A stretch of 33,998 bases of DNA, taken from NCBI GenBank assembly GCA_018822365.1, contig JAHJKL010000086.1, positions 1 through 33,998 of the forward strand, read 5' to 3'. This document shows, one piece after another, positions 17,535-33,986 of this stretch; the first letter of the stretch is position 1, and the number at the start of each line of letters is the position of its first letter. The notes below the pieces were generated by a model. The model did not search any database. It was given only the letters and a program-made list of their open reading frames with translations, and had not been told where the DNA came from. The stretch is from Candidatus Margulisiibacteriota bacterium (GTDB taxonomy: Bacteria > Margulisbacteria > WOR-1 > O2-12-FULL-45-9 > XYB2-FULL-48-7). A program made the translations under genes and the position numbers.

Positions 17535-17565
17535 TCAGAAATCATATTCATTGAAAGGAGTTAAC

Positions 17566-19674
17566 ATGACTACAAGATCAAGTTTTCGTCCCTCCACCCT
17601 TCCCAAGAACGAGGCCGCCGGTCATATTGCCCAATGGCTGACCCATCAACGAAGTTTGATCAAACAAAACCCCCATCATCGGGTCGGTGTAGACGTCGGA
17701 ATGGAAAGCGTTCGCGGCATTCACCCGACGGAAATATTATCCATGCTCCACGGAAAAGAAGCGCCCAGGACGCTTGCCGGCATGGCTCAACTGGACCTTT
17801 CCGAAGTTATCCGCGTTTTTCAATCCGAAGAAGAGAAACCGATCGGCGGCGCCGGCGGCCTGGGGATTATTGAAGAAACGATCGGTTGGACCGCAGCCCG
17901 GCACGGCGAACAGGATAATTACGGGCTGGTTTGCCTCGCTCCATTACACATAATAAGAAGGCGGCAGTCTTTCAACGGGAACCGCCAGGTCACCGAACAA
18001 TATACCGTTGCACCGGAAAGAGATCCGGATTATCTTCCGCTTGGCGAGGTCAGCACCGTCACCCTGCACAAAAAAGAAGTACCGGTCCAAACCTGGCTTT
18101 ACACCGGATTCCGCAATGGTGGAAATTCCCTGCTTACACTCCGCTTAAGCGTCCCCGGAGTGACCGACCGACTCTATCCTCCTTTTTATACTCAGGAAAA
18201 CTTTGACCAGATGCAGGTGCTGGGCCAGGGAGGGTTCCGCCTCTGTCAAAAGCTCGGCATCATTGGAGTGGACAAGCCTTTGGCCAGTCTGGTTATCGGC
18301 CATGATGGGCACACCGCGCTCTTTAAATTCAATCTATTTCTGCACTTTTTGGATAAATTCGGTTCGCAGGAAGCGGCCTTAAAAGCGACCCGGATGCTCT
18401 GCGCCGCGACAATCCACGCGCCGCAGAACGGGACCGTTCCCCGCACGACCGGCGACATGGTCCTGGCCCATTATTCAAAAGAGCACGAAGAGATGTACGG
18501 CTACTTTGGGTCGCAGCAATTTGAGCGGACCAACGCCCTCTATGTAGAGATGCGCCTGAGCGAAATGATCGGCACGGTCTCGCCGCTCCATACCATGGTC
18601 ACGGAAGCGGAAGAAAGAGCGGCCCGGCGGGCTTTTTCCAACCAGGCAAAAGAACTGCTTCCTCCAGAAATTAACAGCTCCGATCTGACCGAATTCCCCG
18701 ATACCCTTGACGTCGAAAGCTGGCTTGGGATGGGCACAGCCCTAACCCTTGACAGTTTTGTTCCCGGCTGGCGGCGCAAGCCAGGGATGCTTGGCCAGCG
18801 GGAAACGATCGATTCGCTCAGCTGCAACCTGGATTTTCGCCGAGAACTGGTTGAAGCATACGATACACAAGAGAATCATTTGTTGGGATTGCTCGACGGA
18901 CGGCTTGACCGACGCTTTGGCGTGGCAATTCCGGAAAACGCCCTGATCTTTGCCTCCCTGCGCCGGGCAACCGCCTATAAGATCAATCTTATTTCCGCTG
19001 TCTTGAACCAGCACGAAACCTACAGCGCAATTGGCCGGGAACTGGGAAGACCGATCTTCTGGCTCTTTGGCGGGTTAGCCCACCAGGACGACACCCAGTC
19101 GATCGACGCCCTGCAAAACCTTCTTTCCCAAATGGAAAGGATCAATGAAGGAAGCGGTCTGTTTAAAACTGATTTTCTCCACGGATATAGTTATGACCGG
19201 GCCCGGTTCATTTTCCCTGGATTACCAAAGAGAGGCTGCTGGGTAGGGAACACCAATCCATTTGATAACCGCTCGCAGGGAACGGAAGCTTTTGGTCCCA
19301 GCTATTTAAAAGCGATCATGAACGGCGTCCACATTTTGGGGACTTTTGACGGCGGAGCAGGTTGTCTGCGGCAGTACCCGACCGTCCTGAATTTTGGCCC
19401 GGTCGCTTTTGCCGGAAATACCAGCTTCCACAACGACATGTGGAACAATGAAGCGATCGTCAAACTTTCCCGATTTCTTTTAGCCAACGGCTTTATCGGG
19501 GCCTTTGAGAAAGTCTCTTCGCGTCTGCATGAAGATATGCTCCGTTTTGAATCGAGGCGCGGCGCTCACGCCCCCGGCCTGGGAGCCAGGATCGAATCAA
19601 TGGCCCGGGCGATCGCCGGCTATAACGGCCGGGTCCTGATGAACAAGTACTTTGAGCAAGCGAGAAGAGGTTAA
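17566..19674 (+). CDS. alpha-glucan phosphorylase-like protein (GT35)
   Basis: The 702-residue protein matches the landmarks of glycogen/maltodextrin phosphorylase, which releases glucose-1-phosphate from alpha-1,4-glucan using pyridoxal phosphate. GGAGGLGIIEE lies in the N-terminal domain. VIGHDGHTAL corresponds to the LND-x-HP segment and ATIHAPQNG to the THTP loop. RRATAYK has K472 aligned with the phosphate-contacting Lys574 of the muscle enzyme. GTEAFGPSYLK has K582 aligned with the PLP-binding Lys, and GTFDGGAG follows. The overall sequence is very diverged and shorter than GlgP (about 815 residues), so its acceptor may differ. AAAGGAG lies before ATG 17566, which is preferred over TTG 17551. 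A 75-base gap with promoter P5 separates it from the next gene. Confidence 0.8.
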   Translation: MTTRSSFRPSTLPKNEAAGHIAQWLTHQRSLIKQNPHHRVGVDVGMESVRGIHPTEILSMLHGKEAPRTLAGMAQLDLSEVIRVFQSEEEKPIGGAGGLGIIEETIGWTAARHGEQDNYGLVCLAPLHIIRRRQSFNGNRQVTEQYTVAPERDPDYLPLGEVSTVTLHKKEVPVQTWLYTGFRNGGNSLLTLRLSVPGVTDRLYPPFYTQENFDQMQVLGQGGFRLCQKLGIIGVDKPLASLVIGHDGHTALFKFNLFLHFLDKFGSQEAALKATRMLCAATIHAPQNGTVPRTTGDMVLAHYSKEHEEMYGYFGSQQFERTNALYVEMRLSEMIGTVSPLHTMVTEAEERAARRAFSNQAKELLPPEINSSDLTEFPDTLDVESWLGMGTALTLDSFVPGWRRKPGMLGQRETIDSLSCNLDFRRELVEAYDTQENHLLGLLDGRLDRRFGVAIPENALIFASLRRATAYKINLISAVLNQHETYSAIGRELGRPIFWLFGGLAHQDDTQSIDALQNLLSQMERINEGSGLFKTDFLHGYSYDRARFIFPGLPKRGCWVGNTNPFDNRSQGTEAFGPSYLKAIMNGVHILGTFDGGAGCLRQYPTVLNFGPVAFAGNTSFHNDMWNNEAIVKLSRFLLANGFIGAFEKVSSRLHEDMLRFESRRGAHAPGLGARIESMARAIAGYNGRVLMNKYFEQARRG

Positions 19675-19749: not shown

Positions 19750-21714
19750 ATGAGTTCAATTCTAATGGTTGGGCAAACCAGACCGTCCCTGGCAAAAAGG
19801 ACCCCTGCGATCAGTTACGGCAGGCGCCCTCTTCATCAGGTTATCTGGAACAGATCCGAGGAACAAAGGATCGTTCATCTTCCGACAGATTATGAATATC
19901 TTCTTCAGGGGCGCGACGGAACCCCCTGGCACCGCATGTCAGAAGAGTGGCAGGCCCAGCGGTTTGCAGACCTGGCTAAAATTCCCTGGGATACGACGGA
20001 CGACGTCAGAGGACTGGTCGGCAACCCAAGATCTACCAAGATCCGCCCCGAACAGGTCTCTTTTATCGACCAGGCCGAGATCCCGACGTTAACCGCCCTT
20101 TCTGCCGAAGGAAAGCACGAACAGCTTGGGGAACTTTTGATCCGGAGCGGCCGGTTAGCCAGGATCACCGTGGCCGGCGGAGAAGCGGCCCGATTCAGAA
20201 ACCCCGGAGATTTAAGGCCAAAGGCACTGATTGAAATAACTGACGAAGGCCCCCTGGCCAGCGAAACCTACTTATCGATCATGGCCCACGATCATTTGTT
20301 GACCCAGCAACGATTTCAGCCCGCAAGCCCTATTCCCTGGCTGTTATTCGTCAGCGCGACAATGCGCCAGGCGTTTGAAGATTATTTTAAACAGCACAAT
20401 TATTTCGGGCTCGATCCCGACTCAGTCGCTCTTTTTGAAAATACCGCTTATGTCCCAAAGTTCCGCCGGGACGGGCGGATCGCCCTGATGGCCGATATGG
20501 ACGGCGGAAATAATCAAGACGACCAGATCGCTTTTTATACGTCCGGGCACGGAGCGCTGGTCCAGGCCTACCGGGAAAACCCGGTTTTTATCCGCGGACA
20601 TCGCTACGATCAGACTCCTCATGCTTTTTTGTCCCAACGTGATGTTCGCCTGATTTTTCAATCAAACATCGACAACCTGGGAGCCAGGACCAGCACCAGA
20701 GGATACAGCATTATTCTTGGACATTACGCAGCCAAAGAAGAAGAGGCAAGCGTTCGCATGCTGGTCGAACTGACCAGGCCGCTGATCGGGATCCGCCCGG
20801 ACGGCAGCAAGTTTTTCTGGGACGAGGGGGGAGTCGCTCTAAAAGTTGACGGCGTGCCAACAATCGTTGACGGGAACGCCCTGGCCGAATCTGTCCTGCA
20901 GCAAACCAGGAACCCGGAAAAGCCATTCCCTTTTAATACCGCCAACGCCACCTACGGCATCGAATCAATTCCCGCCGGCGCCTCCCTCCCCGACCAAATC
21001 CAGGTCCGCAGCGGGCTCTACCAGTATGAGCACAATTTCTGGAACCTTGCCGGTATAATGGATACTACTTTTGTAGAAGTCCCTCGATTCCTTCCCGACC
21101 GACTAAACGAACTTCCTCCAACCAAGGTGGGACAGCCATTCAGCCGGCTCGCCCCTTTTACCGAAACCACCGGTCCAATTGACGGAGACAACCGGTTCAT
21201 CCCGGTAAAACAATGGGGTCATCGCCGACAGGCGGCATCGCTCTTTGTTTACATCACCCGTTATAACCACGACCTCCTGCTCGACCGGGTCAAGGGGACA
21301 ACCAGGGTCCTGATCGTTGACGATTCCGACAACTTCCGCGAAAACACCGCCGACCTGCTCAGGTCCGACGGCTGGACAAGCGTCACCACCGCCGGTTCCA
21401 GGGAAACGGCGCTAGCTTTGCTTGCGGAGCAGGATTTCGACCTCGTGATGCTTGACTCAATCCTGGAACCGGAAGATCAACAACAGGAAATGACCGGCGG
21501 GGTTTCCATTTTGAGAGGATTAAAAGAAAATCCGGAAGCCAGAAACCACGGAGCCCGGGTCGTTTTCTGGAGCGGACAAGAAAGCGTTGAAGCGTCAAAA
21601 GGGTTAAGCGTTTTCCAAACCCAAAGATACGAAGGCGTTGAATACGTCAAAAAAGAATCCGTTCTGCCAAACCAACTTACAGATTTCCTAGCGAAACTAC
21701 TGCTGGGGGAGTAA
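19750..21714 (+). CDS. UDP-sugar pyrophosphorylase-like enzyme fused to a response-regulator receiver domain
   Basis: The 654-residue protein has two parts. Residues about 60-490 resemble UDPGP-family uridylyltransferases (UAP/AGX and UGPase type). RITVAGGEAARF at 138-149 is the nucleotide loop and RPKALIEI follows as the PK motif. IPWLLFVSAT, NYFGLDPDSV and ALMADMDGG fit the sugar and metal regions. Residues about 515-650 form a complete receiver domain: acidic pair D524/D525, phosphoacceptor D569 in LVMLDS, S608 in FWSGQ, and Lys at 634-635. No DNA-binding domain is present, so phosphorylation probably controls the enzyme itself. A histidine kinase gene follows 18 bases downstream. The nucleotide loop AGGEAARF departs from the usual AGGxGTRL, so activity needs testing. 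Confidence 0.78.
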   Translation: MSSILMVGQTRPSLAKRTPAISYGRRPLHQVIWNRSEEQRIVHLPTDYEYLLQGRDGTPWHRMSEEWQAQRFADLAKIPWDTTDDVRGLVGNPRSTKIRPEQVSFIDQAEIPTLTALSAEGKHEQLGELLIRSGRLARITVAGGEAARFRNPGDLRPKALIEITDEGPLASETYLSIMAHDHLLTQQRFQPASPIPWLLFVSATMRQAFEDYFKQHNYFGLDPDSVALFENTAYVPKFRRDGRIALMADMDGGNNQDDQIAFYTSGHGALVQAYRENPVFIRGHRYDQTPHAFLSQRDVRLIFQSNIDNLGARTSTRGYSIILGHYAAKEEEASVRMLVELTRPLIGIRPDGSKFFWDEGGVALKVDGVPTIVDGNALAESVLQQTRNPEKPFPFNTANATYGIESIPAGASLPDQIQVRSGLYQYEHNFWNLAGIMDTTFVEVPRFLPDRLNELPPTKVGQPFSRLAPFTETTGPIDGDNRFIPVKQWGHRRQAASLFVYITRYNHDLLLDRVKGTTRVLIVDDSDNFRENTADLLRSDGWTSVTTAGSRETALALLAEQDFDLVMLDSILEPEDQQQEMTGGVSILRGLKENPEARNHGARVVFWSGQESVEASKGLSVFQTQRYEGVEYVKKESVLPNQLTDFLAKLLLGE

Positions 21715-21732
21715 TGCCACAGCAAAAACAAC

Positions 21733-23847
21733 ATGGTAGTACAAGTAGGTAAAACCCAAAAAAGCCTTTCCCCCCCGCCGTCAACCATCTCGAGACGGCG
21801 AAGATGTTTAACCTTTGGCGACCTTAGTTTGCTAAAAAAAAGCGCTTTCGCCACTTTCGACAACCAGGGAAGGTTAAAGGGATTGAATGACCGGTTTGCC
21901 AGGCTTTTCTGCGGTCCCGTTGAACGACTGGATCAATCGGTCCTGGACAGCGCTGATTTTTCAAAGTTACTGGCAACCATTGCCGCCACCACCAATGAGG
22001 TCATTTCTCCCGCCGACCTGCTGCTGGTCCGGGACCTTAATATCGTTTTTAGGAATATCAGGGTTGGGGAAGCGGCCGACACCCCCCGTTTTTCCGGGCA
22101 GATCGTCCGCGCCTCAAGCCACAAGATCCTTTGCTACCTGTTCCAAACCGACCAGGAGAACGTCGCCAGCTCCGCCCTGACCGCCGACGAACAACTTCTG
22201 CTTGAAGCGGGGGCTTACGCCTTTGGCGCCCTGCACGCGGTCAAAACCCCTATCCTGGCGATCAGAACGCTTGCCGCTCTGCTCGGAAGAATGGCTAATG
22301 ATCCGGAAGCGGTAGTTAAAAAAAGCCAGGCGATCGGCACCGAATGCGATTCCCTGCTCCGAATGGTCACCGAAACGTTTGCCATCAGCTCCGGACGGCC
22401 GGAATTCAAGCCTCTGGATATCAGACAAATACTGGAAGAGATCGTTCAGTCCAGGAAACAGCATATTGAAAACCAATTCAATCTTTGTTTAACCGGAGAG
22501 CCGGCCAAGATCCTTGGCGTTGAAGGCGGGCTGCGCAACGCTTTTGCTTCGCTGGTTGACAACGCCGTCCACGCGGTGCAGACGGCGCGGCCGGCAAGCG
22601 GCCAGGTCACGATCAGCATCCATGACGTTGCTCTGGAAGGCTGGGTCAAGATAGTTATTCAGGACAACGGCTGCGGAATCCCGGAAGAGAATAAATCAAG
22701 GATCTTTGATGTCTTCTTTACCACCAAAAAAAGCGGTTCGGGAATGGGACTGCCAACAGCTAAAAAGGTGATCGAAGATATCCATAACGGGCAATTATCC
22801 TTTACCAGTCAGCCGGGGGAAGGGACAACGTTCACGGTCCTCCTCCCCCGCCAATCATCGGTCAGGTTTCCCTCCTCTCCCTCCATTGACCTCCCCAGAA
22901 AAATCGATGATGTTAAAAAACAGGTCAAGCCGGAACACCGGCTATACGTCGGCCAATGCTTTGAGTTCATGACCCTGGAACATCTTCGGGAAAGCACCGT
23001 CACCGAACTGGTCGCGCAGGTCGACGGGCAGGTCGGCCGGCTTTTAGAATATCTAGCGACCGGCAGGCACCATCTGTCGATCAATAATTTTTCGCGCCGA
23101 ACAGAGCTGGTCATCGCCGGCGATGCCGCCTCGGTCGGCCGGGCCCATTGGGAAAATGTCATTAAATACGTCTTGCACCAACTCGGGCTTGAACACGTCA
23201 AAACAATCCCGACCAGGGTCATCAAGCTCGACGGCTCCGCCTGCCGCATTTTTGAATTGAGCAGGGACGATGAAAAACTGCCGGAAACCGAGATCGCCGA
23301 ACTGGAACCGCTCCTGCGGGCGCGGCTGATCCCTTTCCCGACCGCCAAAGAGCTGGAAGCCCAGGCAAATTTTATCGAGCTGGTCTACACCAGCCTGCTA
23401 AAACAGCCCGGCTTCATTTTAAGCGTTATCTTCAACCCGCAAACACTGGCAAATGCCGCCGCCTATCGGGCAGTCAGCTTCAAGCTCCGGTTCCATCCGC
23501 CCGCTCCGACCCACGAGTCATTCCTGCTCGACAAATACGGCGTGGAACAGCCCCAACCGGCAATGTTCCTTAGACATTACATTGATCAATATCTCTGGCC
23601 AGGCGAAGTCATGCTGGTCCACGAAAAGATCGAGCCGGCGAGGCTGCTGGCGCTTGGCATGGATGATTTCACCGCAAAAATCCTTTTTGCTTCCGGCTAT
23701 AAATCAGCGCGTGTCGCGATCTTCCCCAGCCGAAAGGGGGGCCGGGTGATCAATGCTTTCTGTTCTTCCAACCAGGAAATTGGCGAAAGCGACACCGAGC
23801 TTTTCCTCTCCCTGAACAGAGAATGGAATTTTAACGCTAATTCATGA
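21733..23847 (+). CDS. sensor histidine kinase with large unknown C-terminal region
   Basis: The 704-residue protein lacks membrane segments and is probably cytoplasmic. After a basic, Pro/Ser-rich start, a PAS-like domain occupies about 28-130. The dimerisation domain has the phospho-acceptor His168 in LHAVKTP. The ATPase domain has N277 in LVDNAVHAV, DNGCGIP at 311-317, FFTTKK and GSGMG at 335-339, so the kinase core is intact. About 330 further residues (375-704) match no family I recognise. The gene follows the receiver-domain fusion by 18 bases and is the obvious partner. ATG 21733 has no good Shine-Dalgarno; a 12-codon ORF starting at the upstream TAATG overlaps it and may feed ribosomes to it. 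Confidence 0.88.
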   Translation: MVVQVGKTQKSLSPPPSTISRRRRCLTFGDLSLLKKSAFATFDNQGRLKGLNDRFARLFCGPVERLDQSVLDSADFSKLLATIAATTNEVISPADLLLVRDLNIVFRNIRVGEAADTPRFSGQIVRASSHKILCYLFQTDQENVASSALTADEQLLLEAGAYAFGALHAVKTPILAIRTLAALLGRMANDPEAVVKKSQAIGTECDSLLRMVTETFAISSGRPEFKPLDIRQILEEIVQSRKQHIENQFNLCLTGEPAKILGVEGGLRNAFASLVDNAVHAVQTARPASGQVTISIHDVALEGWVKIVIQDNGCGIPEENKSRIFDVFFTTKKSGSGMGLPTAKKVIEDIHNGQLSFTSQPGEGTTFTVLLPRQSSVRFPSSPSIDLPRKIDDVKKQVKPEHRLYVGQCFEFMTLEHLRESTVTELVAQVDGQVGRLLEYLATGRHHLSINNFSRRTELVIAGDAASVGRAHWENVIKYVLHQLGLEHVKTIPTRVIKLDGSACRIFELSRDDEKLPETEIAELEPLLRARLIPFPTAKELEAQANFIELVYTSLLKQPGFILSVIFNPQTLANAAAYRAVSFKLRFHPPAPTHESFLLDKYGVEQPQPAMFLRHYIDQYLWPGEVMLVHEKIEPARLLALGMDDFTAKILFASGYKSARVAIFPSRKGGRVINAFCSSNQEIGESDTELFLSLNREWNFNANS

Positions 23848-23862
23848 TCGGGGGTAAAAACA

Positions 23863-25245
23863 ATGGCTAACCATCTTTCCGCCCACCAGGCGATCCAACG
23901 GGGCATGGTCCATACAGCAGTACTGGCTGGAGGGTTTGGTTCACGGCTGGACGCCGCCACCGACCCGGGACGCAACAGGTTCGCGGTCGCCAAGCCGGCC
24001 TGCACCGTCGGCAATCTCCGGATAATTGAATTTACCATCCGCGCCTTAAGAAAAGCCGGGATCAGCGATTTTCACCTGCTCCTCTGCTTCCTGCCTGAGA
24101 CTATCCGCCAGGTGGTCGGCAACGGCAAGATCTACGGCGGCAATGTCACGATAACCGAATCGACCCAGGACATCACCGACCCGCTCGACACCGCCAGCGT
24201 TGTCGGCAATTTGGTCAACAACAGCGGCTGGTCAAAAAATCCCGGTGATGTGATCATCGTCCCCAGCGCCGATATTATCCATGATGTTGATATCTCCGCT
24301 GCCCTTGACCAGCATCTTTTTAACAGGAAACAATACGGGGCCTGCGCCACAATTGTCTCAAACGCCGTCCCCTGGAGCAGCGTGGACCGCTTTGGCACAA
24401 TGCGCCTGGAAGGGATGCCGGAACGCCAGGACTACAAGAACGACCTGGAATTTGAGGACGCGGTCGGCGCCTGGCTGACCGAGCATTCCGCCTCCAGCGC
24501 CAAGATCCTGGAATTCAAGGAAAAAGCCAGACGCGGCGCCGCGTTAAGCAACCTGAATAATTCCTCCCTTTACTTTTTTGACGCCTCTTTGTTCGAGCTG
24601 ATCCTGCCACTATTAACAAAAGATGAAAAAGGCCCCCCCCTGGTACCGGAAATATTCCAGCCGGGCGGACCATCCCCCTTTTCTGACTGGGGAAGACATG
24701 TTTTTATGTGGTTGACCCATGAAGCCAGGCGCAATCAATATCCGGTCTTTACTTATGTCATGCCCGATCGCTCTTACTGGCGTGACGCCGGGATCGGCGA
24801 AGAATTGCGCCTGGCAAGCATGGATGTTCTGACCGGGAAGATCGATTCAGGCATTAAAGAAGGTGAAGGGGCTTTCTGGTTCCCGATCGGAGATAACAGC
24901 TGGCGCGGCCATAATGTTTTTGTCCACCCATCAGCTTACGTCGCCAATTCGCTGATCGGCGACAATGTCTCCATCGGGCCCGGCGCCACGGTCGAACATT
25001 CGGTAATCGGTTCAAACGCTCATCTGGAAGCAAAGGTCGGGTTAAGGAGGACTGTCGTTTTCCACCAAAGGGACCCGCAATTTTCAACCCTGATCGGTAC
25101 CGGTTCCCAACTTACCGACTCGTTGGTTTTAGGGGGAAAGATCATTCCCGGGAGCCGTTTTAACGGCGCGATGCTTTACGATCCGGTAGGCGGCGTGGCG
25201 ACCGGCTCGCTTGGCGGAAAAACCCAGTTCAGTCCGGCCAGATAA
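23863..25245 (+). CDS. GlgC-like sugar-1-phosphate nucleotidyltransferase
   Basis: The 460-residue protein starts its catalytic domain with VLAGGFGSRL at about 20-29. KPACTVGNLRIIEF then recalls the KPAVPFGGKYRIIDF-type region of ADP-glucose pyrophosphorylase. IIVPSADIIHDVD and VDRFGTMRL fit the metal and product-loop regions. A left-handed beta-helix follows from about residue 346 (repeats such as SLIGDNVSIGPGATVEHSVIG). It would join a sugar-1-phosphate to a nucleotide; the sugar and nucleotide cannot be told from sequence. An insertion follows GSRL, before the first catalytic Lys region. GGGGG lies seven bases before the ATG. It is encoded 15 bases after the kinase gene. Confidence 0.82.
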   Translation: MANHLSAHQAIQRGMVHTAVLAGGFGSRLDAATDPGRNRFAVAKPACTVGNLRIIEFTIRALRKAGISDFHLLLCFLPETIRQVVGNGKIYGGNVTITESTQDITDPLDTASVVGNLVNNSGWSKNPGDVIIVPSADIIHDVDISAALDQHLFNRKQYGACATIVSNAVPWSSVDRFGTMRLEGMPERQDYKNDLEFEDAVGAWLTEHSASSAKILEFKEKARRGAALSNLNNSSLYFFDASLFELILPLLTKDEKGPPLVPEIFQPGGPSPFSDWGRHVFMWLTHEARRNQYPVFTYVMPDRSYWRDAGIGEELRLASMDVLTGKIDSGIKEGEGAFWFPIGDNSWRGHNVFVHPSAYVANSLIGDNVSIGPGATVEHSVIGSNAHLEAKVGLRRTVVFHQRDPQFSTLIGTGSQLTDSLVLGGKIIPGSRFNGAMLYDPVGGVATGSLGGKTQFSPAR

Positions 25246-25272: not shown

Positions 25273-26889
25273 ATGAGCCACAGAACAATGCTGCTCGGCC
25301 TGGTTGGAGGGGTAGGCTCCCGGCTCTATCCACCGACCGCCCACTTTGGTTTATCCGCCAAAGAACTGAAAAAGGTCCGCCTCGGCCCACAAAGCTACAA
25401 CGCTAACGCGATCCCAAAGCCGCTTACCCATCTTGGGCAAGTACCGCTTATGGGCCCGCTTTTTGAAAGAACGATCACCCAGACTGGAGTCGAGGACATT
25501 GCCATGGCGGTCATGTACCTGGGGAACGACATCAAAGCTTTTTTCGGCGCTAACATGGAAAGACTGCGGCGCGGGACCGGAAGTAGTTTTTATTGGGACC
25601 ACCAGCAAGAGTTCAACCTCAACACCGCTGGTTGTCTGGTCCGGGGGTGGCAGTTGGACCTGAAAGGCCGGGACGGCCATGCTGAAACATATGTCGTTCT
25701 TTCCGCCGACATTCGCTCTAATGTAAATATCGGCCGGATGCAGAAATTTCATAATGAGCACAACGCGCTGATCACCATTGCTCTTGCCCCTGTTCCCTGG
25801 CAAGATGTCGGTCGTTTTGGCGTCGCTTTCCGGGAAGGGGCGACCTTTGACGGCGAGGGGCGCCAGGTCCCTCTGTCAGGCGGCAAGTTTTCCAGGATCA
25901 CCCGCTTTGAGGAAAAAAACCCGGAGGCCAAAAGCAACTTAAATAACACCTCGATCTATTTAATTGATGACCGGGTTTTCCGCCTGATCGAGGAAGATGT
26001 CGAAGTTCCCGCCAACCAAAACCAGCTTGATCCACACCTAAGCACAGAAGAACAACAAAAACTAAATCCCTATAGTTTACCGGTCGCTAAAACCTTTGAT
26101 CCCAAACGGGGAAACTATGCCAACGACTGGACCGACCCGATCACCGGCCGACACTACCGCCTTGGGGTTTTCTCTACTATTTTATTGATGTTAGGCAAAA
26201 GAAAAGAGGGGGAAGCCAACCTGCGCTTCCAGGATTGGGGGGGACATGTCTTCCCCGAGATCGTTACTCACCATCCGGAAATTTACCGGGCCGGCAAAGC
26301 GGGAGAGCGCGAAGGCTTTTTTGGCTATGTGACAGGCAGTCTTTGGGCCGATGACGGGACAAGGAAGGCGCTTCTCCAGGCGAACATCGAGATGCTCCGG
26401 GAAACAGGAGGCTATAATCAGAACGGAGGCCAGCACGATTTTTCCTGGTGGCCCAAACCCGGATATACCCTTTCACGAGACAGCGCCGGGAACAAACTCT
26501 GGGTCGCCGACAATGTGACGATCGAAGAAGGGTCGCACCTCATTGGCCCGCTGATGATCGGCCCAGGAGCAGTTATAAAAAGAGGGGCAATTATACAACG
26601 GTCGGTCATTGGCGCCAGCTGGGAAATTAGCGGCGGCGCGATCACCGACTCTGTTCTTTGGCCGGACCGGCTGGTAATCGGCCTCCCTCCAGGCCCGATC
26701 CCACTGGAGTATAAATTAACCGGAATGGTCCTGGAACATACCCTGGTCGGGAGCGGCCTCCACCCGGACAAGGACGCTTTTTTTGTCGACGATGGGGGCG
26801 ACTACGGGCTGGTCTTCACCGGCGCGCGAACGATCAAAAACCGGGTCCTGGTCGCCAACTCGTCCGGGGTGTTCATTTCCAGCTTCTAG
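25273..26889 (+). CDS. second sugar-1-phosphate nucleotidyltransferase with beta-helix end
   Basis: The 538-residue protein has the nucleotide loop in variant form, LVGGVGSRLYPPT at 9-21. An insertion of about 28 residues separates it from KPLTHLGQVPLMGPLFERTI, the usual substrate-region pattern, and VMYLGNDIKAFFG follows. VLSADIRSNVN supplies the Asp of the metal site. The protein is unusually long for the family, with insertions around 200-330. A left-handed beta-helix runs from about 406 to 480 (LIGPLMIGPGAVIKRGAIIQRSVIG). AAAGGAAG precedes the ATG. It is the third nucleotidyltransferase in a row of five genes. The G of AGG is retained, but the first Ala of the loop is Val, so substrate preference or activity may have shifted. 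Confidence 0.8.
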   Translation: MSHRTMLLGLVGGVGSRLYPPTAHFGLSAKELKKVRLGPQSYNANAIPKPLTHLGQVPLMGPLFERTITQTGVEDIAMAVMYLGNDIKAFFGANMERLRRGTGSSFYWDHQQEFNLNTAGCLVRGWQLDLKGRDGHAETYVVLSADIRSNVNIGRMQKFHNEHNALITIALAPVPWQDVGRFGVAFREGATFDGEGRQVPLSGGKFSRITRFEEKNPEAKSNLNNTSIYLIDDRVFRLIEEDVEVPANQNQLDPHLSTEEQQKLNPYSLPVAKTFDPKRGNYANDWTDPITGRHYRLGVFSTILLMLGKRKEGEANLRFQDWGGHVFPEIVTHHPEIYRAGKAGEREGFFGYVTGSLWADDGTRKALLQANIEMLRETGGYNQNGGQHDFSWWPKPGYTLSRDSAGNKLWVADNVTIEEGSHLIGPLMIGPGAVIKRGAIIQRSVIGASWEISGGAITDSVLWPDRLVIGLPPGPIPLEYKLTGMVLEHTLVGSGLHPDKDAFFVDDGGDYGLVFTGARTIKNRVLVANSSGVFISSF

Positions 26890-26955: not shown

Positions 26956-29900
26956 ATGTCGGCAATGAACTATCAAAGAATTCTACCAGCAAGGATCAAC
27001 GCGCTGCCCAGCACAGCGCCGCATATCCAGGCGCTTCATCATCGGGGTGCGCGGCCAGGCTCGATTTTACCATCACGCTTCAACCCCATAACACCCGGAC
27101 AAATCGCCAGTTGTGATCCAGCAACTATCGCGCCAACCGTCACTCAACTGAATTTAACCCCGCCGATTATCGCTAAAACAAATCGCGCACCATCATTGGC
27201 GAAAAAATTAATGGTCGGCGCCGCCGCCGGAGCCGCGACAATGTTAACTTCAGCGCTGGTCCTGGCCAGCGATGTTGCCACCCCGCTGGTCACCGGCGGC
27301 AATAAAGCTTTTTTCGCCTGGGGAGCGATCGGCCTGGGACTGGCCTACACCACCTGGCGCTTATGGAAACAACTTAAACCGGGCGATTATCAGTCGCCGC
27401 AAAGCCAGCTCAACACCGCCAGTCCGACCCCAAAAAAAATATTCAAGACCCTGGTCGTCCCCGCCTGGCTGACCATGATGGCGGTCGGCAGCGCGATGCG
27501 TTTTGCCCCGGCGATTGATGCTCTTCTCATCCCCTTGACCGAAAAATATCTGGGAGTGGTCCTCCCCAACCTGACCATTCCGATCGTCGGCATGCCGCTC
27601 ACTCTCTCCTGGGCGGTCTGTTCTGTTTTGCTCGGCCGGGCGGCGATAAAAATGGCGGTCAGCTCCGCTGTCGACCTTTATCGCGCCTACCGCTTTCACC
27701 GTTACGGTGAACAGCGGAACGATATCACCCGGCCAAGGCTGATCTCCTCATTGATCACCAACAAGGGACACATCTCTTGGACGGTCGGCGCGATCTTTAC
27801 CGTCCACTTGAGCGAGATCTACGCCACGCAAGCGCTTAGCCTGCTTCGCAACTTTCTCCACAACGCCCTGTTTGAACCAAACGCCCTGACCGGCGCCGCT
27901 GTTTTGGGGGCCGTCTTTGGATTGGTCGGTTTGGCCCGGCACTTTATTGTCGGCCGGAAAGAATTGAAAGTCGGCCAGCCACTGGAAAAACATCCCTGGG
28001 TCAAAACCGCCGCCCTGGCCGCCGGCTCCGCGTTTTTAGTCGGCGCCGGAGTTTCTCTCGGCGGCCCGGCCCTGGCCGCAGCCAACCTGCTGGTTTTTGC
28101 CGCGGTCTTGGGCTTCTACCACAACTTTATCCACTCCAGCCGCTCGCAGGAAGGGGGGCTCCATCAAAAAGACAAAGTCTTCCCGGTCTTTGATCTGCAA
28201 TCGCTCTGGGAAAATGTCCGCGGCCCCTGGGGTGCGGCCAGAACAATTTTCAAGCCCGGAGTCGACATGGTCGATCCTCTCGTTTCTTCGTACATCATGG
28301 TCATGTTGACCGAAGGGTCCAATTGGGTCCTTAACGCCCTCTCCGGCTGTTTCTCCGCCGCTGATTATTCTAAGGCGATCCAAATGATCACCAAACTCCT
28401 AAACCCGGCGGCGGAAAAAATGAGGGCAATCCTTAAAACCGGTTACAACCAGGTTAAATCAGCCGCGACCGCTGAAGCGGCCCGCGACGCCTTTGCCGAT
28501 TCTCTGGAAGCGACCGCCCGATTTCTGGAAGAGCGAGCGACCGGCGATCTAAAAACAGTTTCTGGGCTCGGTTTTCTAAAAGATGGGATGTTTGCCACCG
28601 GTTTGCCGGGAATAGACAACAAACGGGGGGACCAGGACCTGCGGGTCCATGGTGAACACTTGCGTTTTGCCGCCAGGATCTATGAAGAGACCGCCCGCCG
28701 GATCCGTTCCCAGGATATCAGCCAGGTCGATCTCGCCTCATACAAAGCGACCCTGGCGACCCGCCTAAACGCTCTCTACTGTCGGGCTTTCCCGCATTCC
28801 GACACCACACCGGTCCGTTTTTACACCAACATTCTGCCGGACGGTTACAACGCCAAACAATTTGCCGTCGACTTCTGCCAGCAGGTGATGGCCGATTTTG
28901 TCGGCGCTTTTGATGTCGCCATTATCGCCCCCAACGGCCAGCTCAAACTCTGGCTCGTCCCGATGAAAGTGGTCAAAGACTTTAAAGAGGATTACCGCGA
29001 TGTTTTGGCGGTCGAAAGCCGGGACGCCGAAGGAGAAGACCTCCGCTTTGGCTGGTACGAGCGGGCTGACCATGACATCGTCAATACTACCCTTAGCGAC
29101 ATTGCTTATATTGACAACACCGACCACTTCCGCCGGCACGGGCACGACATCAGCAAATACCCGACAGCCGAGGTTTTGACCCCGCCAACCCTGGCCAATG
29201 ACGAATACTACGATGTCGTCTACCGGGACGGCACCCGTTTAAGAGTTTTTGGTGACGGAAGAGATGAATTGATCTCCGGCACCCTTGAAGGGAAAGCCCC
29301 TCTGCTAATCCTGCCGGGAACCAAACGGCACGAATACACCGCGGCCAACACCGCCGAGGTCTTAAACGGCACACCGATCGACTCCACCCTTTACGATAGC
29401 TTGCAAAAGGGAGATATTCCCCACCCCTGGGGAGGTTCGCTGATCAAAGATTCTAATATCGCCTGCCGCTGGCGCTTTATGTACCCGACCGAATACACCA
29501 GCGTCAGCGACGCCGACCAGATGGATATCAACGTCACCAACCTCCGGCTCTTCCACGTCCGGGCCAATCCCCACCTGCGGATCATGTTCCGCCGGCCGCG
29601 GGTCGAAACGGTCCCCTACTCGCCCGATATGGTTGAATCAAAAAATGATTCCCTGCTGGAAGCGGGGGTCGCGGTGGTTTGGATGATGATGAAAGTCAAA
29701 TTAGCCGACGGCCGGGAACTCTATTTCCCGCTCAACATGAACAAAGAGAACGAGCGGACCTTTGGCGGCGACCTTTGGAAATATATCGACCAGACCAAAC
29801 CACTCCAGATCGTTAAAAAAGAGACCGGCTATTTTCTGAAAATCAGCTATCGCGAAGAAGCAAAAAAAGACCCGGACTTTCGCAACGCCGTCGGGATAGA

Positions 29901-30492
29901 AACCAACACGAATGGAACCCTCCCGGTCATGAAAGGGGGCAAATACAATAACCGCGAATCGATCAGCGAGGTCCCGATGCCAATCGAAATGATCGGCCTG
30001 GCTGACCAAATCAGCACGGCTTCGATCGACCCGATTCGTTACGGCGACGTCGGCGGTCCGGTCCCGGTCATGGACTACTTCTTCATCCGACACAACGAGA
30101 ACGGCGACGTCACCGACCAGTCAAGGCAAAAAACTCTGCCGCGCCGCCTGGCCCAGCAGATTATCGCCGGGACTTATTCCCTGCTTAGCCAAAAAGAGAT
30201 GGACCATGCCGCCCTGGTCGATAAAACCATTGAACCGGGCGATCTCCCCTACACCGACGACAATGGGCTGGTCCACATGAACATGACCAGGGAAGAATAC
30301 GCTCAACTTATCGCCTGGCTCCCCAATTATCACGGCGGGCGTCAAGCAATGTTGCGCCAGGGGGAAATGACCATGGAGGTCGGCGAGTTTGTCGCCCTCT
30401 GCAACAGCGCTTACGAACAATTCTCTTATCGACGGTTTATGCCGGACGACCGCTACCGGACCTTTTGGGAAGCGGCGGAGGTCAAGCTATGA
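26956..30492 (+). CDS. giant polytopic membrane protein of unknown function (1178 residues)
   Basis: No family is recognised. A basic, Pro/Ser-rich start of about 80 residues is followed by roughly seven hydrophobic segments within 85-390. About 790 mostly hydrophilic residues follow, with a mixed helical then beta-rich pattern and many conserved-looking Asp, His, Arg and Trp residues. Segments such as SVSDADQMDINVTNL (around residue 850) contain a D-x-D-like motif, but it is not enough to call a glycosyltransferase. ATG 26956 has P6 and a ribosome binding site. The stop overlaps the start of the next giant gene (ATGA), so the two products are made in a coupled way and may form one complex. 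It lies directly after three nucleotidyltransferase-family genes, which hints at use of their nucleotide sugars. Confidence 0.6.
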   Translation: MSAMNYQRILPARINALPSTAPHIQALHHRGARPGSILPSRFNPITPGQIASCDPATIAPTVTQLNLTPPIIAKTNRAPSLAKKLMVGAAAGAATMLTSALVLASDVATPLVTGGNKAFFAWGAIGLGLAYTTWRLWKQLKPGDYQSPQSQLNTASPTPKKIFKTLVVPAWLTMMAVGSAMRFAPAIDALLIPLTEKYLGVVLPNLTIPIVGMPLTLSWAVCSVLLGRAAIKMAVSSAVDLYRAYRFHRYGEQRNDITRPRLISSLITNKGHISWTVGAIFTVHLSEIYATQALSLLRNFLHNALFEPNALTGAAVLGAVFGLVGLARHFIVGRKELKVGQPLEKHPWVKTAALAAGSAFLVGAGVSLGGPALAAANLLVFAAVLGFYHNFIHSSRSQEGGLHQKDKVFPVFDLQSLWENVRGPWGAARTIFKPGVDMVDPLVSSYIMVMLTEGSNWVLNALSGCFSAADYSKAIQMITKLLNPAAEKMRAILKTGYNQVKSAATAEAARDAFADSLEATARFLEERATGDLKTVSGLGFLKDGMFATGLPGIDNKRGDQDLRVHGEHLRFAARIYEETARRIRSQDISQVDLASYKATLATRLNALYCRAFPHSDTTPVRFYTNILPDGYNAKQFAVDFCQQVMADFVGAFDVAIIAPNGQLKLWLVPMKVVKDFKEDYRDVLAVESRDAEGEDLRFGWYERADHDIVNTTLSDIAYIDNTDHFRRHGHDISKYPTAEVLTPPTLANDEYYDVVYRDGTRLRVFGDGRDELISGTLEGKAPLLILPGTKRHEYTAANTAEVLNGTPIDSTLYDSLQKGDIPHPWGGSLIKDSNIACRWRFMYPTEYTSVSDADQMDINVTNLRLFHVRANPHLRIMFRRPRVETVPYSPDMVESKNDSLLEAGVAVVWMMMKVKLADGRELYFPLNMNKENERTFGGDLWKYIDQTKPLQIVKKETGYFLKISYREEAKKDPDFRNAVGIETNTNGTLPVMKGGKYNNRESISEVPMPIEMIGLADQISTASIDPIRYGDVGGPVPVMDYFFIRHNENGDVTDQSRQKTLPRRLAQQIIAGTYSLLSQKEMDHAALVDKTIEPGDLPYTDDNGLVHMNMTREEYAQLIAWLPNYHGGRQAMLRQGEMTMEVGEFVALCNSAYEQFSYRRFMPDDRYRTFWEAAEVKL

Positions 30493-33400
30493 GCGCTATA
30501 AGATATGAACATATTCGCCGGATGGGGTCGCTCCCCTTCGCGGCGGTCAAGCCGGCGGGAAGCCTGCCGCGCCTCAATATTGGGGGGAGCACCGCCAACC
30601 TTAACGTCATTAACTGGCAGGGGCGGAGCTGGGAATGCGACTCCCGCCAAATGGGCTACAGCTTTCTCCACGGCTCCGAACCTCATCTGCACATTGTCGG
30701 AATGGGCTTGCCGGATGTTTTCTGGCAAAGCATTGGCTCAAAACAAAAAGAACCTGGTTGGGCGGTCGGCCGTTTTCAGGGAGAACCGGGAAATCCCCAG
30801 GGGCCAATTACCTGGCAGGCGGTCAGCGACCTTCAGGTTTCTCCTATCCTTTGGAAAACCAGCTCATCTGTTCTCTCCTATCTGGGGCATGAAACGGTCA
30901 GCGGCAATATTGCCGCCTGCCGGGCCGATGGAAAAGACATTATCACCACTCACATCTCCGGCGACCAGGACCGGAGACTGATCCACATCAATCCCGACGG
31001 CTGGACTAAAACCCACCCGGAGCGGCAACAGTTGATCGAACAGCTTGACGGAATATCGCTCTCGACCGATATTGAATCGACCTCCATGTCCGCGGACCGG
31101 ACCAGGCTCCTTTTGACTTCAAAGATCAAAGACAGATCAGGCCGGCCGATCGTTCACGAGATCGACATCAGCTGGATCGCTCCGTCTGTTAGAGAGAGCA
31201 TGTATGTTGATATCCGGGATAAAAAATATAACGTCCGCCTGATCGAGTCCGACCCACGGATCGACTTTGAAGTTCTGGAAAGGGAACAGGTCACCGTTTT
31301 TCACAACGAAACGATCAGGTTCCTTGATTATCAGACGATCCGGGCTTACCGCGACGAACAAGGGGTCTTCAAAGTGACCGTTGAAAACCGGCCGACCGCC
31401 AGAGACCCCAAACCAGAACCCCCGATCGTTCTGGCCGGCAAAACTTTCCGGGAGATCAGAAAATCAGACGCGTACAAAGCGCTCCCCAGAGAAGTGCGCA
31501 GGGCGATCATCAAAACCCTGTGGGAAACCTATGAAACTCCCAACCTCCCCTGGTCGCGAGTTAAGAGCATGCGCCACCGCTATTCGCTCCAGTATTATAA
31601 TTACCGGGAAAGCCGGATCAAAAATGCATTAGAAACTCCCCTGCAGGAGGGGGAGTCGGTCGTCACCCTGCGGGTCCAGTCCTCTGCCCGGGTCGTCCAT
31701 CTTGACGAAGCAAACGGCCGCCAACCAGGAGTCACAGAAGTTATCCCCCTTCCATTTGATCCGACCGAAGGGCATCCGGACCAATTCAGGCTGATGAACT
31801 TTGATCCGCGGCCAAATTCGATCGATGCCACCCGGTTCGTCCGGCCGGTCGATACCGCCATTGCTCCCCAGCATTTGATCGACCCTTATGTCATGGGGAC
31901 AGAGATCATGGCCGCTGTCTGGCCAAAAGCCGACCAGCTCGGTTTCTTCGGACCGTTTATGCTGACTGCTATGGCCTTTCCGCACGGCAAGCAATTTACC
32001 GATTCGTTCATGAACCCATGGTTTGTCTCCTTATTTGGATCAACCTCCCACAGTATCTTTGACGGCAAACGGGATGCCGGACGAAGTTATTCCCTCTTTG
32101 GAAACGCCATGTATTCGGCCAAGATGGTCGGCGCCGCCATGGTGACCGGCCCCAACACCGACTCGGCCAGCCCGGTCAGGGAAGGTCGGCTCTTCCCGGT
32201 CAGGCTCCCGGGGCGGCCGCCGATCTTTGTCAAAACCGCTATCCCCGGTTCTTATATTGAGGTCATTGAAGACGCCCTCTCTTCGTATATGTTTATGCGG
32301 ATGTTCGGTTTTGTGACCGAAACCACCGTTTTAACCTTAAGCGCGGGAGGCGGGCTCGACAACTATATGAACGCTTTAGTCACCCAGCGCGGGGTGCGCT
32401 GGAACGCCGGGGAAAATATCTATTCCAAAGACGCCTGGGAAGTAATTTATGAGGATATGATACGTGGCCCGGTCTTCACCCCCGGTTCCATCTATTATCA
32501 GGCCAAAACTTTTGTTCTTCGCGGTAATGGAGTTGCCCCGGAAGCAACCCAGGAAAATATCGACCGGGCCGACGGCCTGGGGGCGATTAAATCGCAAAAA
32601 GCAGTCGCAGTTGCCGCGAGCGGTGGAACAAAAAGCCCGGTTAAGCTCGTTATCGCCCCGAACCAACCGGTAGCTAAAATGTTTGAACCGGCCGAGGCGA
32701 GGGAATGGCTCAACGTCGGGACCTGGTACTGGGATTCCGGCGCCAAGCTGGTCTCTTTCTCAATGGTCGCGATCGCCGTTTCGCTTGGAGTCGCTCCGCT
32801 GGCGGTCGCCGGAGCGGCCTTCTTTTTTGTTTGTCTCGCCATGACCATGTTCAGCTGGCCGTTCTGGGCGGCGCAGATGGCCAAGGTTGGGATCGCGCCA
32901 AAGACTATTATTTCTGTTTTTCCCAAGCACCTTTTCTGGGGAAATCTCTCGATGCACACCACCGTCAAAGCCAACTTCGACATGGGAAGGCTGGGGGTTG
33001 GTCGGTTCCGGATCAGCGACCGGAGCCTCGGCAATCGTGTCCCTCTGCGCGATAAACGGACCTCTTTTTGGGTCGGAATCGTTCTCCCGTCAACCGCCGG
33101 GACACTTCTTGTCGGCGGAGCCCTGGCAATCACCGTCGCGATGGGAGCGGTCCCGATCGCCCTGGCCGGTCTCCCATTTATCGCCGGCTGGCTCGCCTCC
33201 CGTTTCCTGGACAAGTGGGCAAGCCGCCTCCTGCCGAACGCCAACCAACAAAGCTTTGCCAAAGCGGCCCTCCGCTTTGCCGCCCGGAATGTTCCGTTCG
33301 CCCTGGGGATCGGCGCCTCCCTTCTGGTCCTCCCCTACTACGCGGTCTTTGCCATTCCGCTGGTGACCGCGGCAATGGCGGGAGGGTGGTCGCTCTACAT

Positions 33401-33986
33401 GGGAGCAAACATCCTTAAGGAATTTTCGATTTATCACAAAGAACAACGGGAAGCCTTCACCCGACCGGAACCGAACCCGCAAAGTATCGCTCGCCATCAG
33501 GCCGACACCTGGCGGAACACTTTTAAAGAGATATTTGGGATCAGGCCGCCGACTTTCTTTAAACAGGAATTTACCGCCAGCTCTAACCCAAAAGTCGACC
33601 CCTATAAGCTCTGGGAAGCGATCGACACTGCTAAGGCCGGCCTGCTTGACAAACCAAGCGGCAATCCAATGGCCAACCTCAATAGTTTAATTAATGGCGA
33701 GGAAAGTGCCGACAAAAAACCAGAATTAGCTCGGATCGTTTACCTCTATAACGAACTAAAAGAAAAACTGGCCGCCAGCAAGACTCCTGGATTAGAAGGG
33801 ATTATCCGCCGCTGGAAGATCAACCGTCTGGAGACCCAAACCAGGAATAATGTCGCCACCCTGCTTAGGGAACATCGCCAGGCCGGCAGATTAGAAGCCG
33901 AACAATACGACCGGATCTGTGAACTAAATCGACTGGTCATTGAAGAAGCCTTCCCCGGCAACACGCCGCGGGAACGGTGGATCTAA
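30489..33986 (+). CDS. second giant membrane protein of unknown function (1165 residues)
   Basis: No family is recognised. ATG 30489 overlaps the previous stop as ATGA, with GGAGG seven bases upstream, so it is preferred over the in-frame TTG at 30465. Like its neighbour it begins with MSA and a basic, Pro-containing stretch. About 750 residues of mostly hydrophilic sequence come first, with a beta-rich pattern in the first 300. About six hydrophobic segments lie in 750-980, and a charged, helical tail of about 190 residues ends the protein. Around 600-670 the order IED then QRGVRW followed by membrane segments recalls processive GT2 synthases (TED and QxxRW), but spacing and motifs are imperfect. 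The membrane part sits at the opposite end from that of the 26956 protein, so the pair could be complementary subunits. Confidence 0.6.
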   Translation: MSAIRYEHIRRMGSLPFAAVKPAGSLPRLNIGGSTANLNVINWQGRSWECDSRQMGYSFLHGSEPHLHIVGMGLPDVFWQSIGSKQKEPGWAVGRFQGEPGNPQGPITWQAVSDLQVSPILWKTSSSVLSYLGHETVSGNIAACRADGKDIITTHISGDQDRRLIHINPDGWTKTHPERQQLIEQLDGISLSTDIESTSMSADRTRLLLTSKIKDRSGRPIVHEIDISWIAPSVRESMYVDIRDKKYNVRLIESDPRIDFEVLEREQVTVFHNETIRFLDYQTIRAYRDEQGVFKVTVENRPTARDPKPEPPIVLAGKTFREIRKSDAYKALPREVRRAIIKTLWETYETPNLPWSRVKSMRHRYSLQYYNYRESRIKNALETPLQEGESVVTLRVQSSARVVHLDEANGRQPGVTEVIPLPFDPTEGHPDQFRLMNFDPRPNSIDATRFVRPVDTAIAPQHLIDPYVMGTEIMAAVWPKADQLGFFGPFMLTAMAFPHGKQFTDSFMNPWFVSLFGSTSHSIFDGKRDAGRSYSLFGNAMYSAKMVGAAMVTGPNTDSASPVREGRLFPVRLPGRPPIFVKTAIPGSYIEVIEDALSSYMFMRMFGFVTETTVLTLSAGGGLDNYMNALVTQRGVRWNAGENIYSKDAWEVIYEDMIRGPVFTPGSIYYQAKTFVLRGNGVAPEATQENIDRADGLGAIKSQKAVAVAASGGTKSPVKLVIAPNQPVAKMFEPAEAREWLNVGTWYWDSGAKLVSFSMVAIAVSLGVAPLAVAGAAFFFVCLAMTMFSWPFWAAQMAKVGIAPKTIISVFPKHLFWGNLSMHTTVKANFDMGRLGVGRFRISDRSLGNRVPLRDKRTSFWVGIVLPSTAGTLLVGGALAITVAMGAVPIALAGLPFIAGWLASRFLDKWASRLLPNANQQSFAKAALRFAARNVPFALGIGASLLVLPYYAVFAIPLVTAAMAGGWSLYMGANILKEFSIYHKEQREAFTRPEPNPQSIARHQADTWRNTFKEIFGIRPPTFFKQEFTASSNPKVDPYKLWEAIDTAKAGLLDKPSGNPMANLNSLINGEESADKKPELARIVYLYNELKEKLAASKTPGLEGIIRRWKINRLETQTRNNVATLLREHRQAGRLEAEQYDRICELNRLVIEEAFPGNTPRERWI

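Follow-up and report, generated by a model that had tools for sequence, protein, structure and literature searches.

The window analysed here, a contig of 34 kb (33,998 nucleotides) from a genome of 1.68 Mb, carries on its forward strand a gene (19750..21714) for a protein of 654 aa that joins a nucleotide-sugar enzyme to a signalling domain. Two Pfam families match this protein above their cut-offs: UDPGP (PF01704) at aa 94-317, with 33.9 bits (cut-off 22; E 1.9e-8), and Response_reg (PF00072) at aa 520-612, with 34.2 bits against a cut-off of 30.2 (E 3e-8). Combining Pfam, alignment to PDB profiles, a family alignment, AlphaFold and Foldseek, we place the UDPGP-family catalytic region at aa ~56-487 (19915..21210, forward strand), from an N-terminal helical part resembling UAP enzymes to a catalytic-type lysine, K487. 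It is followed by a single helix (aa 489-517; 21214..21300, forward strand), predicted from the AlphaFold model and the family alignment, and by a C-terminal receiver domain (aa 517-654; 21298..21711, forward strand), which is delimited by Pfam, residue inspection, the model and a tree of receiver domains. Eighteen nucleotides downstream of the fusion gene, on the same strand, starts a gene for a soluble histidine kinase of 704 aa (21733..23847). The first-pass annotation, made from the sequence alone, had given both reading frames exactly, and its proposal that a UDP-sugar-pyrophosphorylase-like domain and a receiver share one chain agrees with the two Pfam matches. A letter-by-letter check also found each receiver residue where it had been placed, namely the acidic pair D524/D525, the phosphoacceptor D569, S608 and K634; K634 is followed by K635 and a glutamate, where proline is usual.

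Upstream, also on the forward strand, lies a gene for an alpha-glucan phosphorylase-like protein of 707 aa (17551..19674), which is divergent (NCBIfam TIGR02094, E 6.7e-13, below the cut-off) and keeps a PLP-lysine motif resembling that of GT35 enzymes, LKAIMNG; judging by its sequence, it could be a source of glucose-1-phosphate. Downstream of the kinase gene are two genes for GlgC-like nucleotidyltransferases with hexapeptide repeats (23863..25245 and 25273..26889, forward strand), and then two large open reading frames. From the phosphorylase-like gene through the fusion, the kinase and the GlgC-like genes to these two frames, the intergenic gaps are 75, 18, 15, 27 and 66 nt, followed by an overlap of 28 nt. 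Such short gaps (15-75 nt) suggest that the whole series forms one operon; a scan for promoters and terminators gave results at chance level. The presence of the phosphorylase and the two GlgC-like genes would fit a glucose-1-phosphate hub.

The identity of the enzyme domain is indicated by both fold and active-site motifs. When a profile of the family was searched against the PDB, its best matches were solved UDP-GlcNAc pyrophosphorylases (E 5.5e-22); structures of UDP-glucose pyrophosphorylases matched at E 6.5e-6. In this alignment R148, K158, G266 and D308 correspond to R115, the PK lysine, G222 and D253 of human AGX1, residues with functional roles in that enzyme. The motifs GGEAAR148F..PK158, TSGHG266-268, SNID308NLG, GG360-361, FNT395-397 and RFIPVK487 can be followed along the chain, and when the protein is aligned with 15 canonical UGPs from its phylum the GHG, SN-DNLG, GG, FNT and RF-PVK elements are kept. 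R148, K158, GHG266-268, D308 and K487 are all retained in the fusion protein. The nucleotide loop, GGEAARFRNPGDLRPK, is atypical, in that it does not follow the GG-GT-(M/L)G consensus of canonical enzymes and contains an insertion. An AlphaFold model built with 28 sequences, which superseded a run with 5 sequences (pLDDT 55), has a mean pLDDT of 77.7 and a pTM of 0.70, and pLDDT exceeds 85-90 over most of the catalytic core; it does not establish how receiver and enzyme are placed towards each other. Foldseek comparison of this model retrieved UAP1 and UGP structures, the best being UAP1 (E 8.5e-21, TM-score 0.67 on the target). Because the model matches UAP1 and UGP and the family profile matches pyrophosphorylases in the PDB, the nucleotidyltransferase fold on which the first-pass annotation had staked its structural prediction is upheld; an N-terminus of some other kind is ruled out by fold and motifs together. 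The N-terminal helices are UAP-like and the C-terminal motifs UGP-like, so that the enzyme may be of UDP-glucose or UDP-GlcNAc type, and the N-terminal part is most likely a UTP:sugar-1-phosphate uridylyltransferase with glucose-1-phosphate as its likeliest substrate. No PF01704 protein besides the fusion occurs in this genome, nor any besides its counterpart in a genome of the same genus (G001), and neither genome has a GalU-type enzyme above the family cut-off. The fusion may therefore be the main source of UDP-glucose, a suggestion only, as the genome does hold other nucleotidyltransferases.

A scan of genome contigs returned one relative, the candidate division WOR-1 record MEUD01000001.1 of G001, which encodes the fusion at full length with 86% identity and next to it the kinase with 76% identity. 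In G007, a genome that belongs to the same family but to another genus, the full-length fusion is 66% identical and its adjacent kinase 48% identical. The pair is thus present in three genomes from two genera, all in one WOR-1/Saganbacteria family, and a survey of 74 genomes of the phylum yielded no UDPGP-receiver fusion beyond these three; no relatives were found on plasmids. Other UDPGP proteins of the class stand alone or are joined to other sequence, such as the GT5 starch-synthase domain to which one of them is fused (genome G014). Since the full-length fusion and its adjacent kinase recur in G001 and G007, the architecture is not an artefact of reading frame, chance or assembly. The phosphorylation residues are kept in all three fusions, with threonine in place of S608 in G007. 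Between the window and G001, dN/dS is about 0.07 for the enzyme domain (dN 0.066, dS 0.98), 0.15 for the receiver (dN 0.102, dS 0.67) and 0.14 for the kinase core (dN 0.153, dS 1.11); purifying selection acts on all three, and the receiver has evolved faster than the enzyme domain.

These patterns of conservation bear on whether the nucleotidyltransferase domain is an enzyme at all. It might instead be a degenerate sensor of a sugar phosphate or nucleotide, whose status the receiver relays to the kinase. The divergent nucleotide-binding loop would suit such a role, as would the many other sugar nucleotidyltransferases in the genome, including the two GlgC-like enzymes of the operon. However, the equivalent of AGX1 D253 is invariant among the fusions, as are K158, K487, R148 and the GHG motif. 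Against a sensor also stand the slower evolution of this part relative to the receiver and its standing as the sole PF01704 protein in a genome where no GalU-type enzyme exceeds the cut-off. We therefore consider a degenerate sensor very unlikely.

A second receiver fusion occurs in a genome from another genus of this family (G005, L018:8375-10231). Like the fusion in the window, it lies at a locus with GH26 genes and sugar ABC transporter genes, the two loci being syntenic and their binding-protein-dependent permeases 84-85% identical, and in the receiver tree its receiver groups with those of the window type (support 91/91), on a long branch. Unlike the fusion in the window, it begins with a GlgC-type enzyme (PF00483), its acidic pair is DK rather than DD, and no kinase gene was found in the 19.5 kb examined around it. 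The DK pair suggests that this may be a pseudo-receiver, perhaps not phosphorylated. The G005 protein thus strengthens the link of this receiver lineage with the synthesis of sugar nucleotides, and at the same time warns that phosphorylation is not universal within the lineage.

The kinase next to the UDPGP fusion consists of a weakly PAS-like N-terminal region, a DHp region with H168, a HATPase_c domain at residues 263-374 (Pfam E 1.6e-25) and a C-terminal domain of ~325 aa; no transmembrane segment is predicted in it. It had been described as intact, and residue inspection and alignment do show H168, N277 and the DNGCGIP and SGSGMGL boxes. The description needs qualifying at the H box, HAVKTP in the window and HTFKGP in G007, in which the histidine is followed by alanine or threonine and not by the usual acidic residue; the HisKA match (E 0.047) is below the Pfam cut-off, with H168 itself conserved. 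The C-terminal domain has no Pfam match, is conserved (50% identity to G007) and, among the matches listed from a search of 30 related genomes, occurs only in the three genomes that bear the fusion. The position of the kinase gene beside the fusion, also proposed at first, holds in all three genomes, even in G007, where the flanks are rearranged so that the end of a homologue of the first GlgC-like gene (57% identity over 126 aa) lies directly upstream and an HD-domain gene downstream.

Whether this kinase is the partner of the receiver is a separate matter, as the genome contains about 16 kinase and about 14 receiver matches above the cut-off, and so the partner could be another kinase. A different kinase or a small phosphodonor might act on the receiver, or the neighbouring kinase might act elsewhere, and both its atypical H box and the G005 fusion, which has no such neighbour, are compatible with this. 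Strict adjacency in three genomes in spite of the rearranged flanks, together with gaps of 18 nt in both the window and G001, argues for partnership, and we regard an unrelated neighbour as quite unlikely.

The position of the receiver within the protein suggests how it could act. In canonical UGPs the RF-PVK motif is followed by a C-terminal left-handed beta-helix domain. According to the family alignment and the AlphaFold model, this continuation is missing from the fusion, with the helix and the receiver there instead; the predicted helix begins two residues past K487 and runs into the first strand of the receiver. The receiver is thus attached beside the probable catalytic lysine, and the helix could plausibly couple it mechanically to the active site. 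In yeast and human UGPase the C-terminal domain is essential for dimer formation, and oligomerisation regulates UGPases (PMC5832301). The receiver, sitting where that domain would be, might hence be mainly a module for interaction or oligomerisation that replaces it, with phosphorylation changing the partners of the enzyme (the GlgC-like enzymes, the phosphorylase or polysaccharide machinery being candidates) rather than its turnover. That the G005 fusion retains a receiver despite the loss of a conserved acidic residue is in keeping with this idea. The maintenance of the phosphorylation residues and of an adjacent kinase in all three UDPGP fusions argues instead for a phospho-switch, and we thus rate the interaction module as unlikely.

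Direct phospho-control is, on the sequence evidence, the best explanation of the fusion and kinase pair. We give a probability of roughly 0.6 to the reading in which the protein is a UTP:sugar-1-phosphate uridylyltransferase, acting most probably on glucose-1-phosphate, and in which phosphorylation of D569 by the downstream kinase switches its activity or its oligomeric state. The kinase would sense a cytoplasmic cue and autophosphorylate at H168, and, as the residues and the conserved adjacency suggest, the phosphoryl group would pass to D569. The receiver would then shift its conformation or dimerise, and the active site or the oligomer would be altered through the helix at 489-517, a coupling suggested by the model and by the position that the receiver occupies. 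Such a switch would set the flow of glucose-1-phosphate into UDP-sugar, beside the two GlgC-like enzymes, and the phosphorylase of the same operon could free that glucose-1-phosphate from alpha-glucan.

Compared with UAP1/AGX1 and A-type UGP (PF01704), the fusion shares the fold, the GG loop with its arginine, the PK lysine and the GHG, DN, GG, FNT and RF-PVK motifs, but differs in its altered nucleotide loop and in the receiver that replaces the beta-helix, and it is bacterial and lineage-specific. The first-pass annotation had presented a biosynthetic enzyme as an unusual output for a receiver. It is indeed uncommon, but the idea is not new: fusions of receivers to standard metabolic enzymes are known, mostly with narrow phyletic spread, such as the fusion to a BcsA-like glycosyltransferase in MTH_548 and KaiC-REC, and have been described as environmental control of metabolic enzymes (PMC5847659). 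As in these examples, the receiver here is joined directly to an enzyme and its spread is narrow; unlike in them, a sugar-nucleotide pyrophosphorylase serves as output, the receiver lies at the C-terminus and a kinase gene is adjacent. In the text examined from a 2024 review on alpha-glucan enzymes of prokaryotes, the terms 'receiver domain', 'response regulator', 'histidine kinase' and 'two-component' do not occur (PMC11046441). Our search, confined to the literature, found no report of a UDPGP-receiver fusion, although such fusions may occur elsewhere. The combination therefore appears to be an unreported member of a known and usually lineage-restricted class.

At the synthesis of UDP-sugars and ADP-sugars, the routes to storage and to envelope polysaccharides part; allostery and oligomerisation are known means of controlling this step. 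We tentatively propose, at somewhat less than even odds, that in this family of WOR-1 bacteria receivers of common descent have been joined to pyrophosphorylases of two types, UDPGP and GlgC, at one chromosomal locus, and that they represent a class of response regulators controlling the supply of activated sugars, in which the receiver replaces the oligomerisation domain as the regulatory handle. The system consists of two soluble proteins and is thus amenable to study in vitro. If the proposed switch is real, a His-Asp phosphorelay acting directly on a pyrophosphorylase would connect signal and carbon flux by a short path that does not require transcription, along which an intracellular signal may raise or lower the supply of sugar building blocks directly, bypassing gene expression.

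Two tandem proteins of G005, a genome of the same family as the window, are 58% identical to each other (L018:10237-12861, 874 aa, and L018:12930-15557, 875 aa), and both have a starch-synthase-like GT5 domain at the N terminus. The remainder of each protein appears by eye to be GlgC-like with hexapeptides, and its Pfam match is weak. In a protein of G014, another genome of the phylum, a GT5 starch-synthase domain and a UDPGP domain are found in one chain (L017:2385-4454), and parts of the nucleotide loop are missing from the UDPGP domain.

At the 3′ end of the window, two overlapping large ORFs (26956-30492, 1178 aa; 30465-33986, 1173 aa) contain multiple hydrophobic segments, and a Pfam scan of both gave nothing above cut-off. 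Both are found again as a pair in genome G010 (L096:12606-18004), with 23-29% identity. Giant ORFs were found in G004 (L086:4161-16256, 4031 aa), at the variable locus adjoining the sugar transporter, and close to the UDPGP gene of G020 (L016:1447-8406, 2319 aa), the latter with no significant match in a Pfam scan. A 654-aa ORF of G007 (L094:3790-5754), which combines a GH26-like protein and a transport permease, could be either a genuine fusion or an assembly frameshift.

The histidine kinase encoded downstream of the uridylyltransferase-receiver fusion (window:21733-23847) has a conserved C-terminal domain (aa 381-704) that lacks a Pfam match. Among the matches listed from a search of 30 related genomes, this domain is limited to the three fusion-bearing genomes, and it is possibly the sensor.
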